Positions 31,974-41,670 of a DNA stretch of 52,121 nt are shown in pieces. Every line of letters begins with the position of its first letter. The first letter of the stretch is position 1. Position numbers and translations under genes: made by a program. The stretch is taken from the NCBI GenBank assembly GCA_022795445.1, contig JAAWGR010000013.1, positions 1 through 52,121 of the forward strand, given 5' to 3'. The DNA comes from Oscillibacter sp. GTDB lineage: Bacteria > Bacillota > Clostridia > Oscillospirales > Oscillospiraceae. A model generated the notes under the pieces. That model saw only the letters and a program-made list of their open reading frames with translations, had not been told where the DNA came from and ran no database searches.

Positions 31974-33377
31974 TTAAACGAGTTTTTCAAAATAGTAAAA
32001 AGTTTCGTCTTCCCCGTTCCGGCGCATGGAGGCAGAGAGCATTTTTATAGAGGCGGTATTTTCTTTGAAGCACTTGGCAAATACCCGGCCAAGATGGAGC
32101 TTGTAAAGCCCCCATTCAGCGACGGCGGCAAAGGCTTCCGTACCGTAACCGTTTCCGGCATAAGCTGGAGCGATACGGCATCCCAGTTCCGCGCCGCCCC
32201 GGCAGTCGAAGTTGTAGAGGACGGCTTCACCGATAAATTTTCCATCCAGCCGAACGGCAAAATTTGCAGCGAAACGGTTTGCAAAATCCCGTTGGGCGAC
32301 GTCAAAAAAGCTGCGTTCCTCAACAGGACCGCCTAATCCGCCCACATCATCATAGCCCCACCAACGGTTTCGTTCTTTGTCTAAAACAAGGGCATTGTAA
32401 GCGGGGATATCCGCTTCCGTCAGGGCAGAAAGGGTCAAGCGCTCCGTTTTCAGTTCAGGGATTGCGGTGATGTGCCGCATGAGTTCATTCATTGGTTCGA
32501 AACAGTATTTCGACGCCAGTTTTGCTGGGCCGTATTGCAGCTTCGAGGTCCGGAGCCCACGGTCGGCAGCATCGTCCTCACGGTTGATCCACTGGCAGTT
32601 GCTGCCGAAAGCCCCGGCAAAGGCCTGGACAAACGTTGGATAGATACCGGTATAGGAGTAGAGGGCCTTTTCGATGTGGATGATCAAGGTGTCCCCGCAG
32701 CGCTCCGACAAAGAGAGGGCAATCAGCTTTTCGCCGTCAAACATGCCTCCGGCGACAAACCAAGACTTACCTGCAAGCTTCAGCATTTTCTTCGCCTGCT
32801 TCAGTTCCTCTTGGGCCTTGGCGTTGCTGCTTTTAGGAAACTCTGCCTCATAATCCCGCCAAAATTGTTCAATGATAGGCGCATCCTCAGCCGTTAAAGG
32901 CCGGATAGACGCATCGGGCCACTGCGCCCGAAATTTATTGATGTGGTTCCGCTGTCCAGAGTAGCGTCGCCCGGTAAAATACTGCAAATCCTCCCGGTAA
33001 TAAACATAATCTCGCCAAGTGCGGATGTCGCTGACCCGTACATACGGGTACCGGGCCATTAGCCGCGTCGCTTTGCACTCTGGAACGACGGATATCACTG
33101 GCAGGCGGCCTTGTTCCAGGCAGTATTTTTCGATGAAGGAGAGTGCGGCATCCTCATCGCCCTCTGGGCCGGGAATCGGGTAGTCGAATACCCAGCTGCC
33201 GTCGTGTTCGTTCCGCACGACCAGGCAGCCCGCCGTTTCCGTCCAGGCCGGGTGCAGTACAGGCCGCCACATAAGCTTAGTGCCCAGGGAGTATTCGCAC
33301 AGACCGTAGTTGCAGTCTTTATAGTATTTCCGCAGCTTAGCCGCGTCTTGTTTTGTCACCGGCTTGAACTGTTCCAT
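31974..33377 (-). CDS. DUF2156 - GNAT acetyltransferase fusion protein
   Basis: 467-residue two-domain protein. The N-terminal part (about residues 1-290) resembles DUF2156, the GNAT-like fold of the MprF C-terminal domain that uses aminoacyl-tRNA or acyl donors (GRRYSGQRNHINKF, then LSLSERCGDTLIIHIEKAL). The C-terminal part (about 300-467) is a RimJ/RimL-type GNAT acetyltransferase (LKTERLTLSALTEAD ... AYAGNGYGTEAFAAV with the CoA-binding loop). No membrane segments. ATG 33377 follows GGAGGT by 4 bases. Substrate unknown. Confidence 0.82.
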   Translation of the reverse strand: MEQFKPVTKQDAAKLRKYYKDCNYGLCEYSLGTKLMWRPVLHPAWTETAGCLVVRNEHDGSWVFDYPIPGPEGDEDAALSFIEKYCLEQGRLPVISVVPECKATRLMARYPYVRVSDIRTWRDYVYYREDLQYFTGRRYSGQRNHINKFRAQWPDASIRPLTAEDAPIIEQFWRDYEAEFPKSSNAKAQEELKQAKKMLKLAGKSWFVAGGMFDGEKLIALSLSERCGDTLIIHIEKALYSYTGIYPTFVQAFAGAFGSNCQWINREDDAADRGLRTSKLQYGPAKLASKYCFEPMNELMRHITAIPELKTERLTLSALTEADIPAYNALVLDKERNRWWGYDDVGGLGGPVEERSFFDVAQRDFANRFAANFAVRLDGKFIGEAVLYNFDCRGGAELGCRIAPAYAGNGYGTEAFAAVAEWGLYKLHLGRVFAKCFKENTASIKMLSASMRRNGEDETFYYFEKLV

Positions 33378-33389
33378 GTCAACCTCCAC

Positions 33390-33550: not shown

Positions 33551-34873
33551 TTAATCGATTTCTGCCTTCAGAATTGCCCCAGTCACGGCATCAACCTCGT
33601 ATTCATATTCCGTCCGGCCAACGGTAAATTCGATTTCATAACAAGCCAGGCCATGGTCTTTGTCAAGTTCACATTTCACATATTTTGCTTCGTTGGCGTT
33701 GATACCGGCGTGTTGGAATGCGGCGGCTTTTGCCGCGTCGCTGCCGATATAGGTGTAACTGGCAGAGGAGTTATCAGGGGTAGATTGGCTGACTGGTGCG
33801 CGGGAAGCGGCTTCTTGTTCGGATTTTCGGATGGTTCCGTCAACAGCGTTCAGTTCGTATTTGTACTTCGTACCATCACAGATGAATTCGACTTCATAGA
33901 TCCGGACGCCATCGTCCCAATCCAGTTTTGTTCGCAGGTTGGTGATGTTGGCGGCTTCGACGCCAGCATCGGCGTAGGCAATCGCGGCAGCTTGATCCGT
34001 GGTGAGAAGGGTTTCGGAGGAGGGGGGCACATAGCCGGTTTCCTGCTGACTTTTCAGGATACCGCCGGTATAGGCGTCGATTTCGTATTCGTATTCCACG
34101 CCGTTTGCATAAAACTCCACCTTGTATTCCGGGTACCCGTCATCATATTCCAGCCAAACATTGCAATATTCGGTATCCTCTTCGGCAAGGTTTGCATCGT
34201 AGAGCGCATTTTTCATTGCTTGGACGCGGTTGATGCCGTTTGGAATGTCCGGCGCTTCGGGGATATCGTGAGAGTCGGGATAGGGAACGCTCACAACTCC
34301 CTCTAGATCCGAATCAGGGTCCAGTGTAATCCCAAGCGCACAGATATTTTCAGCTCCGCTGAGTATTTTCCCACTGAAAGCATCCACTTTGTAATTAAAA
34401 TCACCCTTTGTAATGTGCAATTGAATTTCATAATGCGGCGGTGTTTCGTCCAGTTTCAGTTCCCCTGTCCAAGTAACAGAGTCGATTGCCAAAGTCCCGG
34501 CGTACTCCTCAGCGGCATAAGCGGCGGTGTTCAGCCCAATAAGCATTCCCGGTGCACCTGCGGCCTGAAGTTGCCGGAGTTCTTCTTCTGACAGTTCCGC
34601 TAACGCCTTGGCGTCCAGTGCGCTGTTCAGGCGCAGAATTTCCTTGATCAAAGCGGTTTTTTCCGCAGAGACCGATTCGCCCAACGCATCGCTCCCCGCA
34701 TTCAGGACCGAAGACGGCGTTTGGGCCCTCAGTTGGGAAATCTGCCAGCTCTGGTAGGCAAAGCCGCAGGCCAGCAGCACGATAACCACCGCTATCGCGA
34801 TAAAAGCGATTTGTTGATTGCTTCGTGTTTTTTTGCTGTTTTCTGGCATGTCCGGATGACCGAGGGGTTCCAT
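33551..34873 (-). CDS. membrane-anchored protein with about four PepSY-type repeats
   Basis: 440-residue protein with one N-terminal membrane segment (about residues 22-43), so the body faces outside. Four repeats of the PepSY type follow: each has an alanine-rich helix, then strands YEVEF/YKYELNAV and the end motif DA.TG.I.K (ends near 172, 271, 352 and 438). The first is the most diverged. PepSY domains are found in inhibitors of extracellular peptidases and in YpeB. The gene is third in the unit rlmB - P-type-like - PepSY. AAAGGA precedes ATG 34873. Confidence 0.85.
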   Translation of the reverse strand: MEPLGHPDMPENSKKTRSNQQIAFIAIAVVIVLLACGFAYQSWQISQLRAQTPSSVLNAGSDALGESVSAEKTALIKEILRLNSALDAKALAELSEEELRQLQAAGAPGMLIGLNTAAYAAEEYAGTLAIDSVTWTGELKLDETPPHYEIQLHITKGDFNYKVDAFSGKILSGAENICALGITLDPDSDLEGVVSVPYPDSHDIPEAPDIPNGINRVQAMKNALYDANLAEEDTEYCNVWLEYDDGYPEYKVEFYANGVEYEYEIDAYTGGILKSQQETGYVPPSSETLLTTDQAAAIAYADAGVEAANITNLRTKLDWDDGVRIYEVEFICDGTKYKYELNAVDGTIRKSEQEAASRAPVSQSTPDNSSASYTYIGSDAAKAAAFQHAGINANEAKYVKCELDKDHGLACYEIEFTVGRTEYEYEVDAVTGAILKAEID

Positions 34874-34912: not shown

Positions 34913-37210
34913 TTAGTATCTCCCTGTCCAGTCTGCCATAAGCAAAACCGGCAGGGTCCATAGAAACAGAAAAAGTTCCAGGATCAGGGGATTCATTAGT
35001 TCGTACTGTCCCAAGGAAACAAGGTAGAAGGTCAAAAGTGTTCCCACCCAGCTGCCTAAAAGCGACAGTACGGCCGCCCGGCGTACAGCTTTACAAAGCC
35101 GCAGGCTTCCCGCCACGGCCTCCGCATAGGGCAGCAGCCCTTCCCGGAACACCAAGGCGCGGGGAAGGTCGCCGTGGTCGTTTTCCGCTTCGCTGAGCGC
35201 TACCCGGTCCGTCAGATCAGGATACTCTAACCGAATGTTTTTGCTGAATTTGCGCCGCAAAAGGGCGGGGGTGATATTTGGGTCCCGAGAGGCCAGGATT
35301 GGCAGAAGATGGCTCCGGCGCATCATTTTTAAGGCAAAATCCACATTCTCCGATGGTTCGTATTTGATGGCAAAAACTGCGGACAAATGGTGTTCAATTG
35401 CCAGATAAATGCCGGTTTTCAGGTTCAGGTTCCCCGGGAGGCGTATGTCCATCTTGCGCATAAAAGAGGCTGTTCCTAACAGGACGGCTTCCCCGCGAAT
35501 CGTGGCGGCATATCCTCCTTCTTCGTAAAAGCTGAAATCCACCGCAAGTTCATAAGAGCCGCCTTCACCTTTCAGATAATCCTCAAAAAGCCGTTCCAAG
35601 CCGCAGCCGGCGGCTCGGGTCATAGCGGCGGCGTAGGCGATGGCTTTGACGGGCTCTTCGCCGTAGAATTTTTGCCCATTCATCTGGACGGTTCCTGGTG
35701 GGAACAGGTCCGTGTCGGTTAAAATCATGCAGTGCTGGGCGCTGATTTTCTGTGCGCCGGACCAAGAGGCCACAGCGCAGCCGGTTTTTTGCAGGTGCCG
35801 TGACAGTTTTGACCAAGGCAGGCTCCAGCTCAAGGGCATGGAAAAAGTTGCCGCCGCGGCCAGAATGGCGGACCAGTTCAAAAGGAAATCCGCGTTCCGG
35901 TTTTGGCCAAAGGAACTAAGACCCGCAAACACAAACGCCGCGACAAGAAACACCGGCAGCAGTACAGCCTGCCAGATGGTTGCGGCATTGTCCCGGGAGG
36001 CGGTGGTGTAAAATCCGGGAACCGAACCCTGCTGCTTGCAAGCTCCCCGCGGAGTATCGGTTACAAGGTAAGGCGGGTTGCTGTCCACGGCAGCAGCGCG
36101 GTACATGTCGTAGGTTCCCCGGCTCTCCCAGCCGACACCCCACTGGGCGATGGCCAGCGCCAGACAGGCTACGGCGCCGTAAGGGGCTGCCGCAGTCCGT
36201 TCGGTGAAGAGGAGACAGGAGCCGCAGTCCGCTGCGGCGACCAAGGCCGACAGCGACGCTGCCAGTTCTGCGGTACAGCGTCCCCGAAACAGCATTCGGA
36301 TGGCTTTGGCGAACACATGGCGGCTGAAAAAAGCCGTTAGTGTCAGGCAAACCAGCAAAACAATGGATTGGAATTTCAAGTCTCCCGTCCAGAGGGGAAG
36401 TTCCATCCCGTACTGTTCTGCCAGCAGTGCCAGCGTCGGCGGAAGCGCGGACGCCAGAGCTGCAAACCGCGTCCGGGTGCGGATGGCAAAGGCTTTATGG
36501 TGGCGCATGGCCGCCGTCCAAAGGTCCGGTTCTGGGCCAATAGGCTCTGGGTCCGGTTCCGGTTCCGGCTCTGGGGGAGGAGGAATTTCTTCCGTATTCT
36601 CCATAGGCTTGCGCCGTTTGAAAAACCGAGCAGGCAGAGGCGGTTCCAGCTGCTCGCGGATGGCCTCCTCGTGTTGTTCATACATCACAGCCTCGACCGT
36701 GTGCTCCACCACTGTTTCCAGTGGGACAGGCTTAGGTGCGCTGGGTACGTCTAATTGCTCTACATCCACTACCGGCAGGGCAGCCTCCGGCGCGGCGGGG
36801 CCGCCTGGAACCGCCGGAGGAATCTCAAGGGGCGGGCCAGGTTCATCCGCCATTTCCTCAATAATGCTTTCTATGGTGTGCTCAGGTTTCTCTGTGGGTT
36901 CCTCTGTGGGTTCTTCTGCCAGAGGTTCTGCCGTTTCTAAAGGCGGTTCCGGTTCTGGAGTTGGTTCCGCCTGGGGCGCTTCTTCTGGAATATCAGGTTC
37001 CGGGTTGGAAGGCTCTGGTTCGATTGGGATTTCCATGATCGGAGGTTTTTCCACTGGTTCGGGGAGGGGATCTTCCGTATTTTGAAAAAGCTGCCGTTCT
37101 AACCCGCCGCCATATTCTGCCAGGATTTCCTCTAATGAAAAAGTCTCCTCTGCCGCAGGTACATCAGTATCGATGTCTGTAAGGGGGATAATGTCTCGAT
37201 TGTCTGCCAT
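34913..37210 (-). CDS. degenerate P-type-ATPase-like membrane protein with Pro/Glu-rich N terminus
   Basis: 765 residues. Residues 1-230 are acidic, Pro/Glu-rich and probably disordered. Then about four to five membrane segments (near 280-296, 313-335, 343-359, 411-431, 441-464), a cytoplasmic domain (about 465-705) and two final segments (711-733, 739-759). The layout and the stretch around 455-505 follow P1B ATPases: SMPLSW stands where CPC is usual, and TDTDLFPPGT stands where DKTGTLT is usual. TGD and GDGxND motifs are not recognisable (SRDPN, SEAENDHGD). So it is likely a non-pumping relative. CAGGAGAG precedes ATG 37210. Confidence 0.7.
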   Translation of the reverse strand: MADNRDIIPLTDIDTDVPAAEETFSLEEILAEYGGGLERQLFQNTEDPLPEPVEKPPIMEIPIEPEPSNPEPDIPEEAPQAEPTPEPEPPLETAEPLAEEPTEEPTEKPEHTIESIIEEMADEPGPPLEIPPAVPGGPAAPEAALPVVDVEQLDVPSAPKPVPLETVVEHTVEAVMYEQHEEAIREQLEPPLPARFFKRRKPMENTEEIPPPPEPEPEPDPEPIGPEPDLWTAAMRHHKAFAIRTRTRFAALASALPPTLALLAEQYGMELPLWTGDLKFQSIVLLVCLTLTAFFSRHVFAKAIRMLFRGRCTAELAASLSALVAAADCGSCLLFTERTAAAPYGAVACLALAIAQWGVGWESRGTYDMYRAAAVDSNPPYLVTDTPRGACKQQGSVPGFYTTASRDNAATIWQAVLLPVFLVAAFVFAGLSSFGQNRNADFLLNWSAILAAAATFSMPLSWSLPWSKLSRHLQKTGCAVASWSGAQKISAQHCMILTDTDLFPPGTVQMNGQKFYGEEPVKAIAYAAAMTRAAGCGLERLFEDYLKGEGGSYELAVDFSFYEEGGYAATIRGEAVLLGTASFMRKMDIRLPGNLNLKTGIYLAIEHHLSAVFAIKYEPSENVDFALKMMRRSHLLPILASRDPNITPALLRRKFSKNIRLEYPDLTDRVALSEAENDHGDLPRALVFREGLLPYAEAVAGSLRLCKAVRRAAVLSLLGSWVGTLLTFYLVSLGQYELMNPLILELFLFLWTLPVLLMADWTGRY

Positions 37211-37229
37211 TGCTATGCTCTCCTGTCCG

Positions 37230-37994
37230 TCAGCCAAGGCGCTGCCGGACCGCTTCATATAAAAGAATTGCCGCTGCCGCGGAAGCGTTCAGGGAATTCA
37301 GTTTCCCCTGCATGGGAATGCTGACGCGAAAGTCACAGGTTTCTGCTACTAAGCGGCTCATGCCGCTGCCCTCGCTGCCGATGACGATGGCGGCAGGGCC
37401 TTTCAGGTCAGCTTCATAGAGAGGCGTTGTTCCATCTGCTGCCGTACCGAACACCCATAAACCCTGCTTTTTCAAATCTTTTAACAGCGATGGGAGATTT
37501 GGAACCCGCGCTACCGGCAAATGAGCTACCGCTCCGGCGGAGGTTTTTGCCACCACAGCGGTCAGACCTGCGCTGCGCCGTTTCGGGATAATGACGCCGT
37601 GTGCTCCAGCACACTCCGCTGTACGGATCACAGCCCCCAGGTTGTGGGGGTCGGAAAGTTCATCGCAGATGACCAAAAGAGGCGTTTCGCCCTTTTCCAC
37701 CGCTAAATGCAGGATGTCCTCCACACTGGCGTACTCACGCACAGCTGCCAAGGCAATCACGCCTTGATGGGCGTGTGTCTGGCTCATGGCGTCCAGCTTC
37801 CGCCGGTCCGCCTCTACGACGACAGCTCCTGTCGAACGGGCTTTGGAGGCGATGTGCCCTAGGGTTTTGTCTGTCTCTCCTTTTTGCAGGTATACCTTAT
37901 CCAAGGCCATACCGGCCCGCAGAGCTTCCAAAACGGCGTTTCTCCCCTCGATCACACCGTCGGCCCCAGTATCGTTTCTTTGCAGTCTATCCAT
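37230..37994 (-). CDS. rlmB: 23S rRNA (guanosine2251-2'-O)-methyltransferase family (RlmB)
   Basis: SPOUT/TrmH-family rRNA methyltransferase of 254 residues. N-terminal substrate domain begins IEGRNAVLEAL; the knotted SAM domain has DPHNLGAVIRTAECAG (about residues 115-130), IGSEGSGMSRL near 205 and the C-terminal SIPMQGKLNSLNASAAAAI. AGGGAGC precedes ATG 37994. It is the first gene of the unit that continues into the P-type-like protein (gap 19). Confidence 0.94.
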   Translation of the reverse strand: MDRLQRNDTGADGVIEGRNAVLEALRAGMALDKVYLQKGETDKTLGHIASKARSTGAVVVEADRRKLDAMSQTHAHQGVIALAAVREYASVEDILHLAVEKGETPLLVICDELSDPHNLGAVIRTAECAGAHGVIIPKRRSAGLTAVVAKTSAGAVAHLPVARVPNLPSLLKDLKKQGLWVFGTAADGTTPLYEADLKGPAAIVIGSEGSGMSRLVAETCDFRVSIPMQGKLNSLNASAAAAILLYEAVRQRLG

Positions 37995-40449: not shown

Positions 40450-41625
40450 TTATTTTTGCAGGTATGCCAGCAGTGCAGCTGGTTCAATAACACTGCCATA
40501 AGGGTATTCCGAACCATCTTTGACAGCAGATATTGGATGGGCTGTTGCCTGTGCGGCCTGGGTAAATTCTTCAAACGTAACATCCGGTTTTACCTGGCAG
40601 GCCAAAGCATACAGGCCCGCGATCCAGGGGACGGTCCAGCTGGAGCCGCCTTCTGCGAAGTAAGCGTATTCCTCCGGTCCGGCTGGGGAAGCCACAGCCC
40701 GCCGGTCCATTGGGACCAAGAGCGCAGAACCATCGGAGCCTCTGTATTCACCGGTGTAGAGGGAGTCCTCCCAAAATGCGCCGGGACATACATCGGAGAT
40801 GTTGTTTGGGTCTCCATAGGGCGTGCGGCCCATGCCGATATAGGGTTCTATAAGGGGATCGCGGCTGCTGACCCAAACCACAGCAATCCCTGCATCCCGG
40901 GCGCGCTGAATGGCGGCGTCCATTTCCTCCGCCCCCGCCGTGTCCGCCATATAGCCTATAGACATTGAAATCACGCGGATTTTTTCATCCGACGGAAGTG
41001 TCTTGTTCAAGGCAATCAGGCGGTCGATATCGGCGGCATAATAGGACATATCCCGTTCCCCCGTACCAGTTCCAACGTCATCAGCCATGTAATAGAGAAG
41101 GGCTTCCGGAGCTGCGCCCACTGTAGCGCCCAGCGCGATGGAAGCCACTGCCGGGCCATGCATGGAGGCATCATCATTTGCAGCGGTGTGGTACTCCTGA
41201 TAAAGCCGCAAGCGGTCGCCGTACTCCTGGTGGTCAACCAGCAGGGACTGGTCGATGATGGCAATTCCGACGCCTTTGCCGGTAATGCCTTGCGCGTGAA
41301 GGGCTCGTAGACCTAAGCCGGGATCTTTGCCCAGTTCGGTCAATGCAGCAGGGTCAAAGCCTTCTGGAAGGGTTTCCGGCCACTGGGTCCGCGTGTCGAA
41401 ATCGGCGGAGAGCAGGTCGTCCAGACTATCCGACAAGTCCATCCCCCGCAGGTCGGCGCAGCGGAAATCGCCCCAGCCTGCGTCGACATCCGGGTCGTTC
41501 ATCAAGGATGTTGTAACGGCTTTTGGATGGCGGCAGATTGTTCCGGCTTCCAGTGTGCCGGACTCTGCGCCGCAGCTGCTGAGCAGCAAGATCAGGCAGA
41601 TAAGAAGCAGAATGCATTTTTTCAA
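40450..41625 (-). CDS. subtilisin-like (S8) serine peptidase lipoprotein
   Basis: 391-residue exported S8 peptidase. Short signal peptide with lipobox LLLSSC, so it should be a membrane-anchored lipoprotein after cleavage. The triad residues are seen in IAIIDQSLL (Asp), ASMHGPAVASIAL (His) and EGGSSWTVPWIAGL (Ser), though the usual GTSMA around the serine is replaced by SSWTV. The start is probably TTG 41625 (GGAG 8 bases upstream, then a KKC signal peptide); ATGs at 41634 and 41640 are in frame. Three TTCTTACA repeats lie upstream. Confidence 0.86.
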   Translation of the reverse strand: MKKCILLLICLILLLSSCGAESGTLEAGTICRHPKAVTTSLMNDPDVDAGWGDFRCADLRGMDLSDSLDDLLSADFDTRTQWPETLPEGFDPAALTELGKDPGLGLRALHAQGITGKGVGIAIIDQSLLVDHQEYGDRLRLYQEYHTAANDDASMHGPAVASIALGATVGAAPEALLYYMADDVGTGTGERDMSYYAADIDRLIALNKTLPSDEKIRVISMSIGYMADTAGAEEMDAAIQRARDAGIAVVWVSSRDPLIEPYIGMGRTPYGDPNNISDVCPGAFWEDSLYTGEYRGSDGSALLVPMDRRAVASPAGPEEYAYFAEGGSSWTVPWIAGLYALACQVKPDVTFEEFTQAAQATAHPISAVKDGSEYPYGSVIEPAALLAYLQK

Positions 41626-41670
41626 AAGAACCATCTCCATTCGGTTTGATGGCCTTATCATAGCAGGTGT

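Follow-up and report, generated by a model that had tools for sequence, protein, structure and literature searches.

A conserved relative of the P1B copper ATPases that lacks the pump motifs and is encoded beside rlmB in the Oscillospirales

A 52,121-nucleotide (nt) stretch of an Oscillibacter sp. genome (assembly GCA_022795445.1, contig JAAWGR010000013.1, positions 1 to 52,121; hereafter the window) was found to carry, on its minus strand, a gene of a pseudo-P1B ATPase, which was followed through the bacterial family (Oscillospiraceae), order (Oscillospirales) and class (Clostridia) of its host. By profile comparison, the product is a full-length relative of the P1B copper ATPases in which the catalytic motifs of these pumps are missing, and the family that it represents is most like the copper (CopA) type of pump. 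The absence of pumping is well supported by the joint loss of the motifs, and the most likely role is that of a scaffold or receptor with peptide docking. The complete proposal, that a dead 'pseudopump' was retained to act as a scaffold or receptor in the membrane, docking through an N-terminal peptide, is judged to have slightly better than an even chance of being correct.

Homology was assessed by profile-profile alignment with hhalign, in which the pseudo-P1B family matched the P1B ATPases at E = 5.8e-33 across 533 of 566 columns. The controls, namely a reversed P1B profile, three P1B profiles with shuffled columns and four unrelated families, gave E values of 0.056 to 0.55, and the similarity is thus not due to chance. 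The family profile also matched solved copper ATPases (E = 1.9e-13), and a match to the fold of the nucleotide-binding (N) domain supports the same homology. Eight single members, the window protein included, were scanned against Pfam and gave no match at E ≤ 1, and the window protein gave none at that threshold in NCBIfam. The seven other members gave NCBIfam matches below the cut-off only, to heavy-metal or copper ATPases (best 71 bits vs. 1316), together with three unrelated chance matches in one of them; for the weakest member, the sole match was at E = 0.079.

The open reading frame (ORF) at 34913-37258 encodes 781 residues, by which positions are numbered here, or 765 when counted from the start at 37210. 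This start, already proposed in the original prediction, is preferable to that of the ORF, with an AGGAG stretch just before it and the rlmB stop (37230) 19 nt away. The gene is single copy in the host genome (one match at E ≤ 0.01).

The phosphorylated aspartate is the defining feature of P-type ATPases. Residue conservation was scored over 137 core sequences, comprising 97 rows from the own bacterial family and 40 from other families; alignment A1 contained every own-family sequence except L009, L027 and L093 (94 of 97). Both DKTGT and GDGxND were absent from all 137, which bears out the original prediction of a conserved P1B relative without the pump motifs, and the losses of CPC, DKTGT and GDGxND from the window protein are real. 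As strings, a CPC-like motif occurred once, TGE[ST] once and TGD[NG] twice in the same set. The CPC was aligned by profile with F472-S473-M474; it is indeed replaced, although by FSM and not by the SMP first named, which was one residue off. The own family reads mostly F/L-S-A at this position, and the conserved polar columns include no Cys. Similarly, the replacement of DKTGT stood but its reading as DTDLF did not: the alignment begins at T514 (T514-D-T-D-L518) and puts the phosphorylated Asp of the pumps on T514, not on D515, a placement that, absent a structure, could be shifted by one residue. Thr was found at position 514 in 62 of the 97 own-family rows and Asp in one. Members L172-L174 of family f23 are more than 1,000 residues long overall, with very long tails, and have Asp at the phosphorylation position, the rest of DKTGT being gone.

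In the own family, TGDNxxTA has become x-R-D-F-N-I-T-P by majority (first position T in 41/97). The stretch with GDGxND is deleted, and the segment of the actuator (A) domain is down to 60-80 residues. Since the phosphorylation motif, the phosphatase loop, the magnesium segment and the metal site were lost together, an ATP-driven cycle is very unlikely. Other positions have become fixed: Y633, aligned with the Asp of the 'vaD' stretch of the pumps, is Tyr in 135/137 sequences (97/97 in the own family), and G595 is invariant (137/137). Together with P520, these are invariant residues not known from the pumps.

Two alternatives concern what is left of the catalytic domains. In the first, held to be unlikely, the residual fold of the N domain and the phosphorylation (P) domain would bind a ligand or nucleotide and signal through the tail, with no hydrolysis. 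Against such a sensor, the SEHPL of the N domain has become SGSGL by majority in the own family (Pro is kept in 18/40 sequences elsewhere), 59/137 sequences have Gly at the first Gly position of GxG, 6/137 have Lys at the Lys position of PxxK, and GDGxND is deleted. In the second, which we regard as still less probable, the protein would be a transporter or flippase with a non-canonical cycle, using the DxD as a new phosphorylation site. This DxD resembles that of other haloacid dehalogenase (HAD) enzymes and is well kept in the own family (D515 in 91/97, D517 in 96/97). D515 lies one position off the pump Asp in the alignment, which bears on its reading as the nucleophile of a DxD HAD phosphatase, the model of the P domain being unreliable. 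The same alignments speak against the transporter by having T514 at the phosphorylation position, as do the counts outside the own family (D515 in 23/40, D517 in 22/40) and the absence of TGES and of the magnesium-binding segment. F519 and P520 were found in 95/97 and 97/97 own-family sequences and in 35/40 and 34/40 of the others, respectively. DTDLFPPG, asked about earlier as a conserved signature across homologues, is thus kept as DxDLFP in the own family and less well outside it.

The acidic Pro/Glu tail noted earlier is present and spans about residues 17-244 of the window protein. Own-family tails contain 16.5% Glu and 12.2% Pro and have a mean length of 215 residues. A peptide with the consensus FSLEDILAEF was found in 94 of 128 tails with a strict pattern; a looser pattern matched 79/92 own-family tails and 18/40 others, as compared with 11 of 1,840 shuffled tails. 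When the host genome was searched with a profile of the peptide at E ≤ 10, only this gene was matched (E = 2.9e-7, the gene itself being part of the profile). In each of 14 other genomes the best match was at the pseudopump gene, as judged by coordinates, the next best being at E = 0.165; eight of these genomes had contributed a row to the profile, and the six others matched at E 1.1e-8 to 0.0056. A member was confirmed with the order profile in 13 of the 14 fetched pieces, and the last (L332, G171) holds the start of a member. A search of 1,708 neighbour ORFs for a shared peptide gave three matches, one being the 5' portion of a broken member and the two others resembling chance hits. A VanW/PG_binding_4 protein (L340:1-1560, minus strand) has an N-terminal LEDILQE stretch resembling the peptide (E = 0.675) and is a weak lead.

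Matches at E ≤ 1e-5 were found in 137/150 genomes of the bacterial family, and the gene was carried by 96 of the 97 good ones (completeness of 90% or more, contamination of 5% or less). In the order, 237/245 genomes matched at E ≤ 1e-10, a threshold that can also catch true pumps, and 224/245 at E ≤ 1e-20, eight of the remainder having no match and 13 a weaker one. In a draw of 291 genomes from the class, 12 matched at E ≤ 1e-20, all from the own order. Nine close pairs were compared for substitution rates at nonsynonymous and synonymous sites (dN/dS), and eight gave ratios of 0.04-0.19, with dS above 1 in four of these; the ninth was without a dS value. This near-universal retention and low dN/dS are those of a gene under purifying selection and not of a decaying one. 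Ordinary decay or an assembly artefact, to which one in-frame stop each in the members of G148 and G170 might point, was therefore ruled out and is given next to no probability; 136 of the 137 family matches are free of internal stops.

Of the 13 genomes of the order whose matches were all weak, six (G154, G177, G195, G209, G274 and G353) were inspected at the rlmB region. A divergent member was found right after rlmB in G154, G177 and G353, and was matched at E = 1e-73, 4.7e-72 and 4.4e-46, respectively, by an order profile in which these three were not included (small ORF set). In G195 the contig ends just after rlmB, and in G209 and G274 RlmB was not found at E ≤ 1e-20. Four genomes without a pseudopump match were also searched for RlmB: G131, G065 and G234 gave none at the same threshold, and G247 gave only a 27% identical hit beside ribosomal-protein genes, taken as a paralogue. 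Loss of the whole operon or gaps in the assemblies are possible explanations for G131, G065, G209, G274, G234 and G247.

An rRNA methyltransferase gene had been noted next to the gene, and this linkage proved general. RlmB was encoded upstream, on the same strand and within 400 nt, in 121 of the 124 loci whose upstream sequence reached 200 nt or more (an earlier count of 103/125 came from a crude gene caller). The three others were L099 (469 nt), L171 (a broken gene) and L147 (none found), and two more loci were too short. In L171 (G170), whose member has the in-frame stop, RlmB remains upstream. The two genes form an apparent operon and are probably co-transcribed. The PepSY gene fared differently: among 125 other loci, only the nearest (L032) had a relative, and the gene was rejected as a conserved partner. 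EF-G-like and FtsH-like proteins were found on either strand in 40/126 and 36/126 loci, respectively (named by reading), and neither is a constant neighbour.

A further alternative is that the protein is a regulatory or partner subunit, paired with an intact P-type ATPase in its host cell and tuning it. In each of the 16 genomes searched, a P1B match scored above the family cut-off, and the likeness of the family to CopA-type pumps would also suit such a role. However, the conserved neighbour is rlmB, and a pump-like neighbour was seen in one of 126 loci (L154). Moreover, the pseudopump is present in G150 and G154, in which the P1B matches over the cut-off are short pumps only, taken as Zn type, and it therefore need not serve CopA. 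We consider the subunit reading improbable.

The origin of the family was examined in other orders of the class. In one of these (f43), 5 of 14 loci encode an intact CopA-type pump immediately after rlmB, with DKTG in all five; one, inspected at full length, has a Cys-containing N-terminal domain, CPC, TGES and GDGIND. None of 38 further outgroup rlmB loci showed a P1B match directly downstream (1.5 kb flanks, part of them searched with the family profile only); one of them, L247, has a P-type match upstream of rlmB. For comparison, pumps were labelled as CopA or Zn type by length and sequence. TIGR01511 matched in 73 genomes, and its 30 top-ranking loci alone supplied the background CopA set. 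Scored with the family profile, all 48 CopA-type pumps (99.5-177 bits) exceeded all 15 Zn-type pumps (39-81 bits for the 14 that matched, one being without a match), which favours a CopA-type origin. The five rlmB-linked pumps rank 4, 17, 18, 19 and 24 among the 62 matching pumps (63 given).

In a quick tree, with the root placed by choice on the Zn-type pumps, the pseudo-P1B family came out as a single clade (100) whose branch measured 4.36 changes per column. In the unrooted tree the family lies between the Zn-type pumps (94) and the CopA-type plus rlmB-linked pumps (81), so that, on its very long branch, it is placed inside neither pump type. When the family and the rlmB-linked pumps were held as one clade, the log-likelihood was 9.58 higher than that of the free tree, and this grouping was not rejected (p-AU 0.67). 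Aspartokinase, named from its first residues alone, is encoded ahead of rlmB in f43 and in 3/4 f13 loci; since it does so in other outgroup loci also (e.g. L217, L219 and L249), the shared aspartokinase-rlmB order is weak evidence of origin. Descent from an rlmB-linked CopA is compatible with these sequence comparisons but is not proven by them. The larger claim of a new, order-wide pseudopump class, in which an rlmB-linked CopA lost all catalytic machinery at the root of the order, gained a short docking peptide on a disordered tail and came to serve as a membrane hub or receptor, near-universal in the group and defining it, is put forward tentatively, as somewhat short of an even chance.

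In the mechanism that we propose for the scaffold or receptor, a CopA-like P1B ATPase would have been stripped, in an ancestor of the order, of its sites for phosphorylation, dephosphorylation, magnesium and metal, and the remnant would then have been retained for another purpose. The membrane bundle and the rebuilt N and P domains would form a cytoplasmic platform, and FSLEDILAEF, borne on the long flexible acidic tail, would dock a putative cytosolic partner. A gained role is argued for by the retention of the gene together with the new invariant positions, and a scaffold or receptor would be the simplest such role for a platform in the membrane whose flexible tail bears a peptide at its tip.

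Several observations weigh against this reading. D659, the Asp of TGD, is retained in 128/137 sequences, so that the TGD reported earlier as absent is indeed gone from the window protein (SRDPN) while its Asp is still kept among relatives. G582 is retained in 135/137, and outside the own family Asp occupies the phosphorylation position in 13 of 40 members (1/97 inside). With these residues kept, some residual binding of nucleotide or phosphate is possible. The strict peptide pattern fails in 34/128 tails, about half of which are near misses by eye, and the partner and its binding at the peptide are purely predicted. The AlphaFold2 (AF2) structure model, computed from the window protein and five relatives only, is poor (predicted local distance difference test, pLDDT, 52); its helices fit the eight-helix 4-A-2-PN-2 layout, whereas family hydropathy gives seven peaks. 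The coordinates of the gene, of its predicted parts and of its neighbours are listed in Table 1.

Table 1. Positions in the window of the pseudo-P1B-ATPase gene, its parts and the adjacent genes
Feature	Coordinates	Strand	Basis or remark
Pseudo-P1B-ATPase gene	34913..37210	-	ORF open to 37258
Conserved N-terminal peptide FSLEEILAEY, residues 40-49 of the 781-residue ORF	37112..37141	-	
Long Pro/Glu-rich tail, presumed disordered, length varying among relatives	36527..37111	-	
Four predicted membrane helices preceding the A-domain remnant, residues 245-373	36140..36526	-	Weak AF2 model and family-average hydropathy
A-domain remnant without TGES, residues 374-435	35954..36139	-	Profile alignment
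Two predicted membrane helices and the strand ahead of the motif, residues 436-513, with the CPC position	35720..35953	-	
T514-DTDLFPPG, replacing DKTGTLTEG	35693..35719	-	
Degenerate N and P domains, with G582, G595, Y633 and S657-R-D659-P-N for TGDN; GDGxND segment deleted	35135..35692	-	Alignment and N-domain fold match
Final two predicted membrane helices, residues 709-781	34916..35134	-	
rlmB, 23S rRNA 2'-O-methyltransferase, conserved upstream partner	37230..37994	-	TIGR00186, E = 1.7e-71
PepSY protein, encoded downstream, not conserved at the locus	33551..34873	-	Four PepSY stretches

Two other genes of the minus strand were noted in the window. That at 31974-33389 encodes a protein in which an LPG_synthase_C (MprF-type) domain precedes a GNAT acetyltransferase domain, and that at 40450-41661 a subtilase-like protein (Peptidase_S8, E = 1.9e-11) whose start resembles that of a lipoprotein.

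If the proposal is right, a whole family without the phosphorylation motif, kept in nearly every genome of an order, would show that the fold of a pump can be reused in bacteria. Its conservation beside the same neighbour gene suggests a new job for a pump relative in a large group of gut bacteria, and the pseudopump would be a clean system for asking what a dead pump does. No description of a pseudo-P1B family was found among the matches listed from the open-access literature, as judged by title and start of abstract.

Among known systems, the P1B-1 copper ATPases (CopA, HMA4 and ATP7B) resemble the family in end-to-end profile similarity, in the fold of the N domain and, by the weak model, in the 4-A-2-PN-2 order of helices; unlike them, the pseudopump has no CPC, DKTGT, GDGxND or TGES, a short A region and a peptide-bearing Pro/Glu tail. 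The rlmB-linked CopA-type pump of f43 shares the site directly downstream of rlmB but keeps DKTG. The phosphorylation and phosphatase motifs of the P-type ATPases are described in PMC10654040. In a survey of these enzymes, DKTGT was found in 99.77% of the 9,634 sequences identified, and the 22 without an intact motif differed by single point changes, which may be sequencing errors or mark specialised pumps (PMC3896382). Those variants also miss an intact DKTGT, but as sporadic point changes, in contrast to the order-wide joint loss of motifs in the pseudopump family. Finally, the human endoplasmic reticulum protein TMEM94/ERMA is described as having a P-type layout, an A-like domain without TGES and a proposed site without visible nucleotide (PMC12134183); its status as a pump is disputed, the opposite claim reportedly being made in PMC13322241. 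TMEM94 differs in being human, in having SPCA as its nearest structure and in its full A-like domain (PMC12134183), whereas the bacterial family is nearest to P1B and has lost more.
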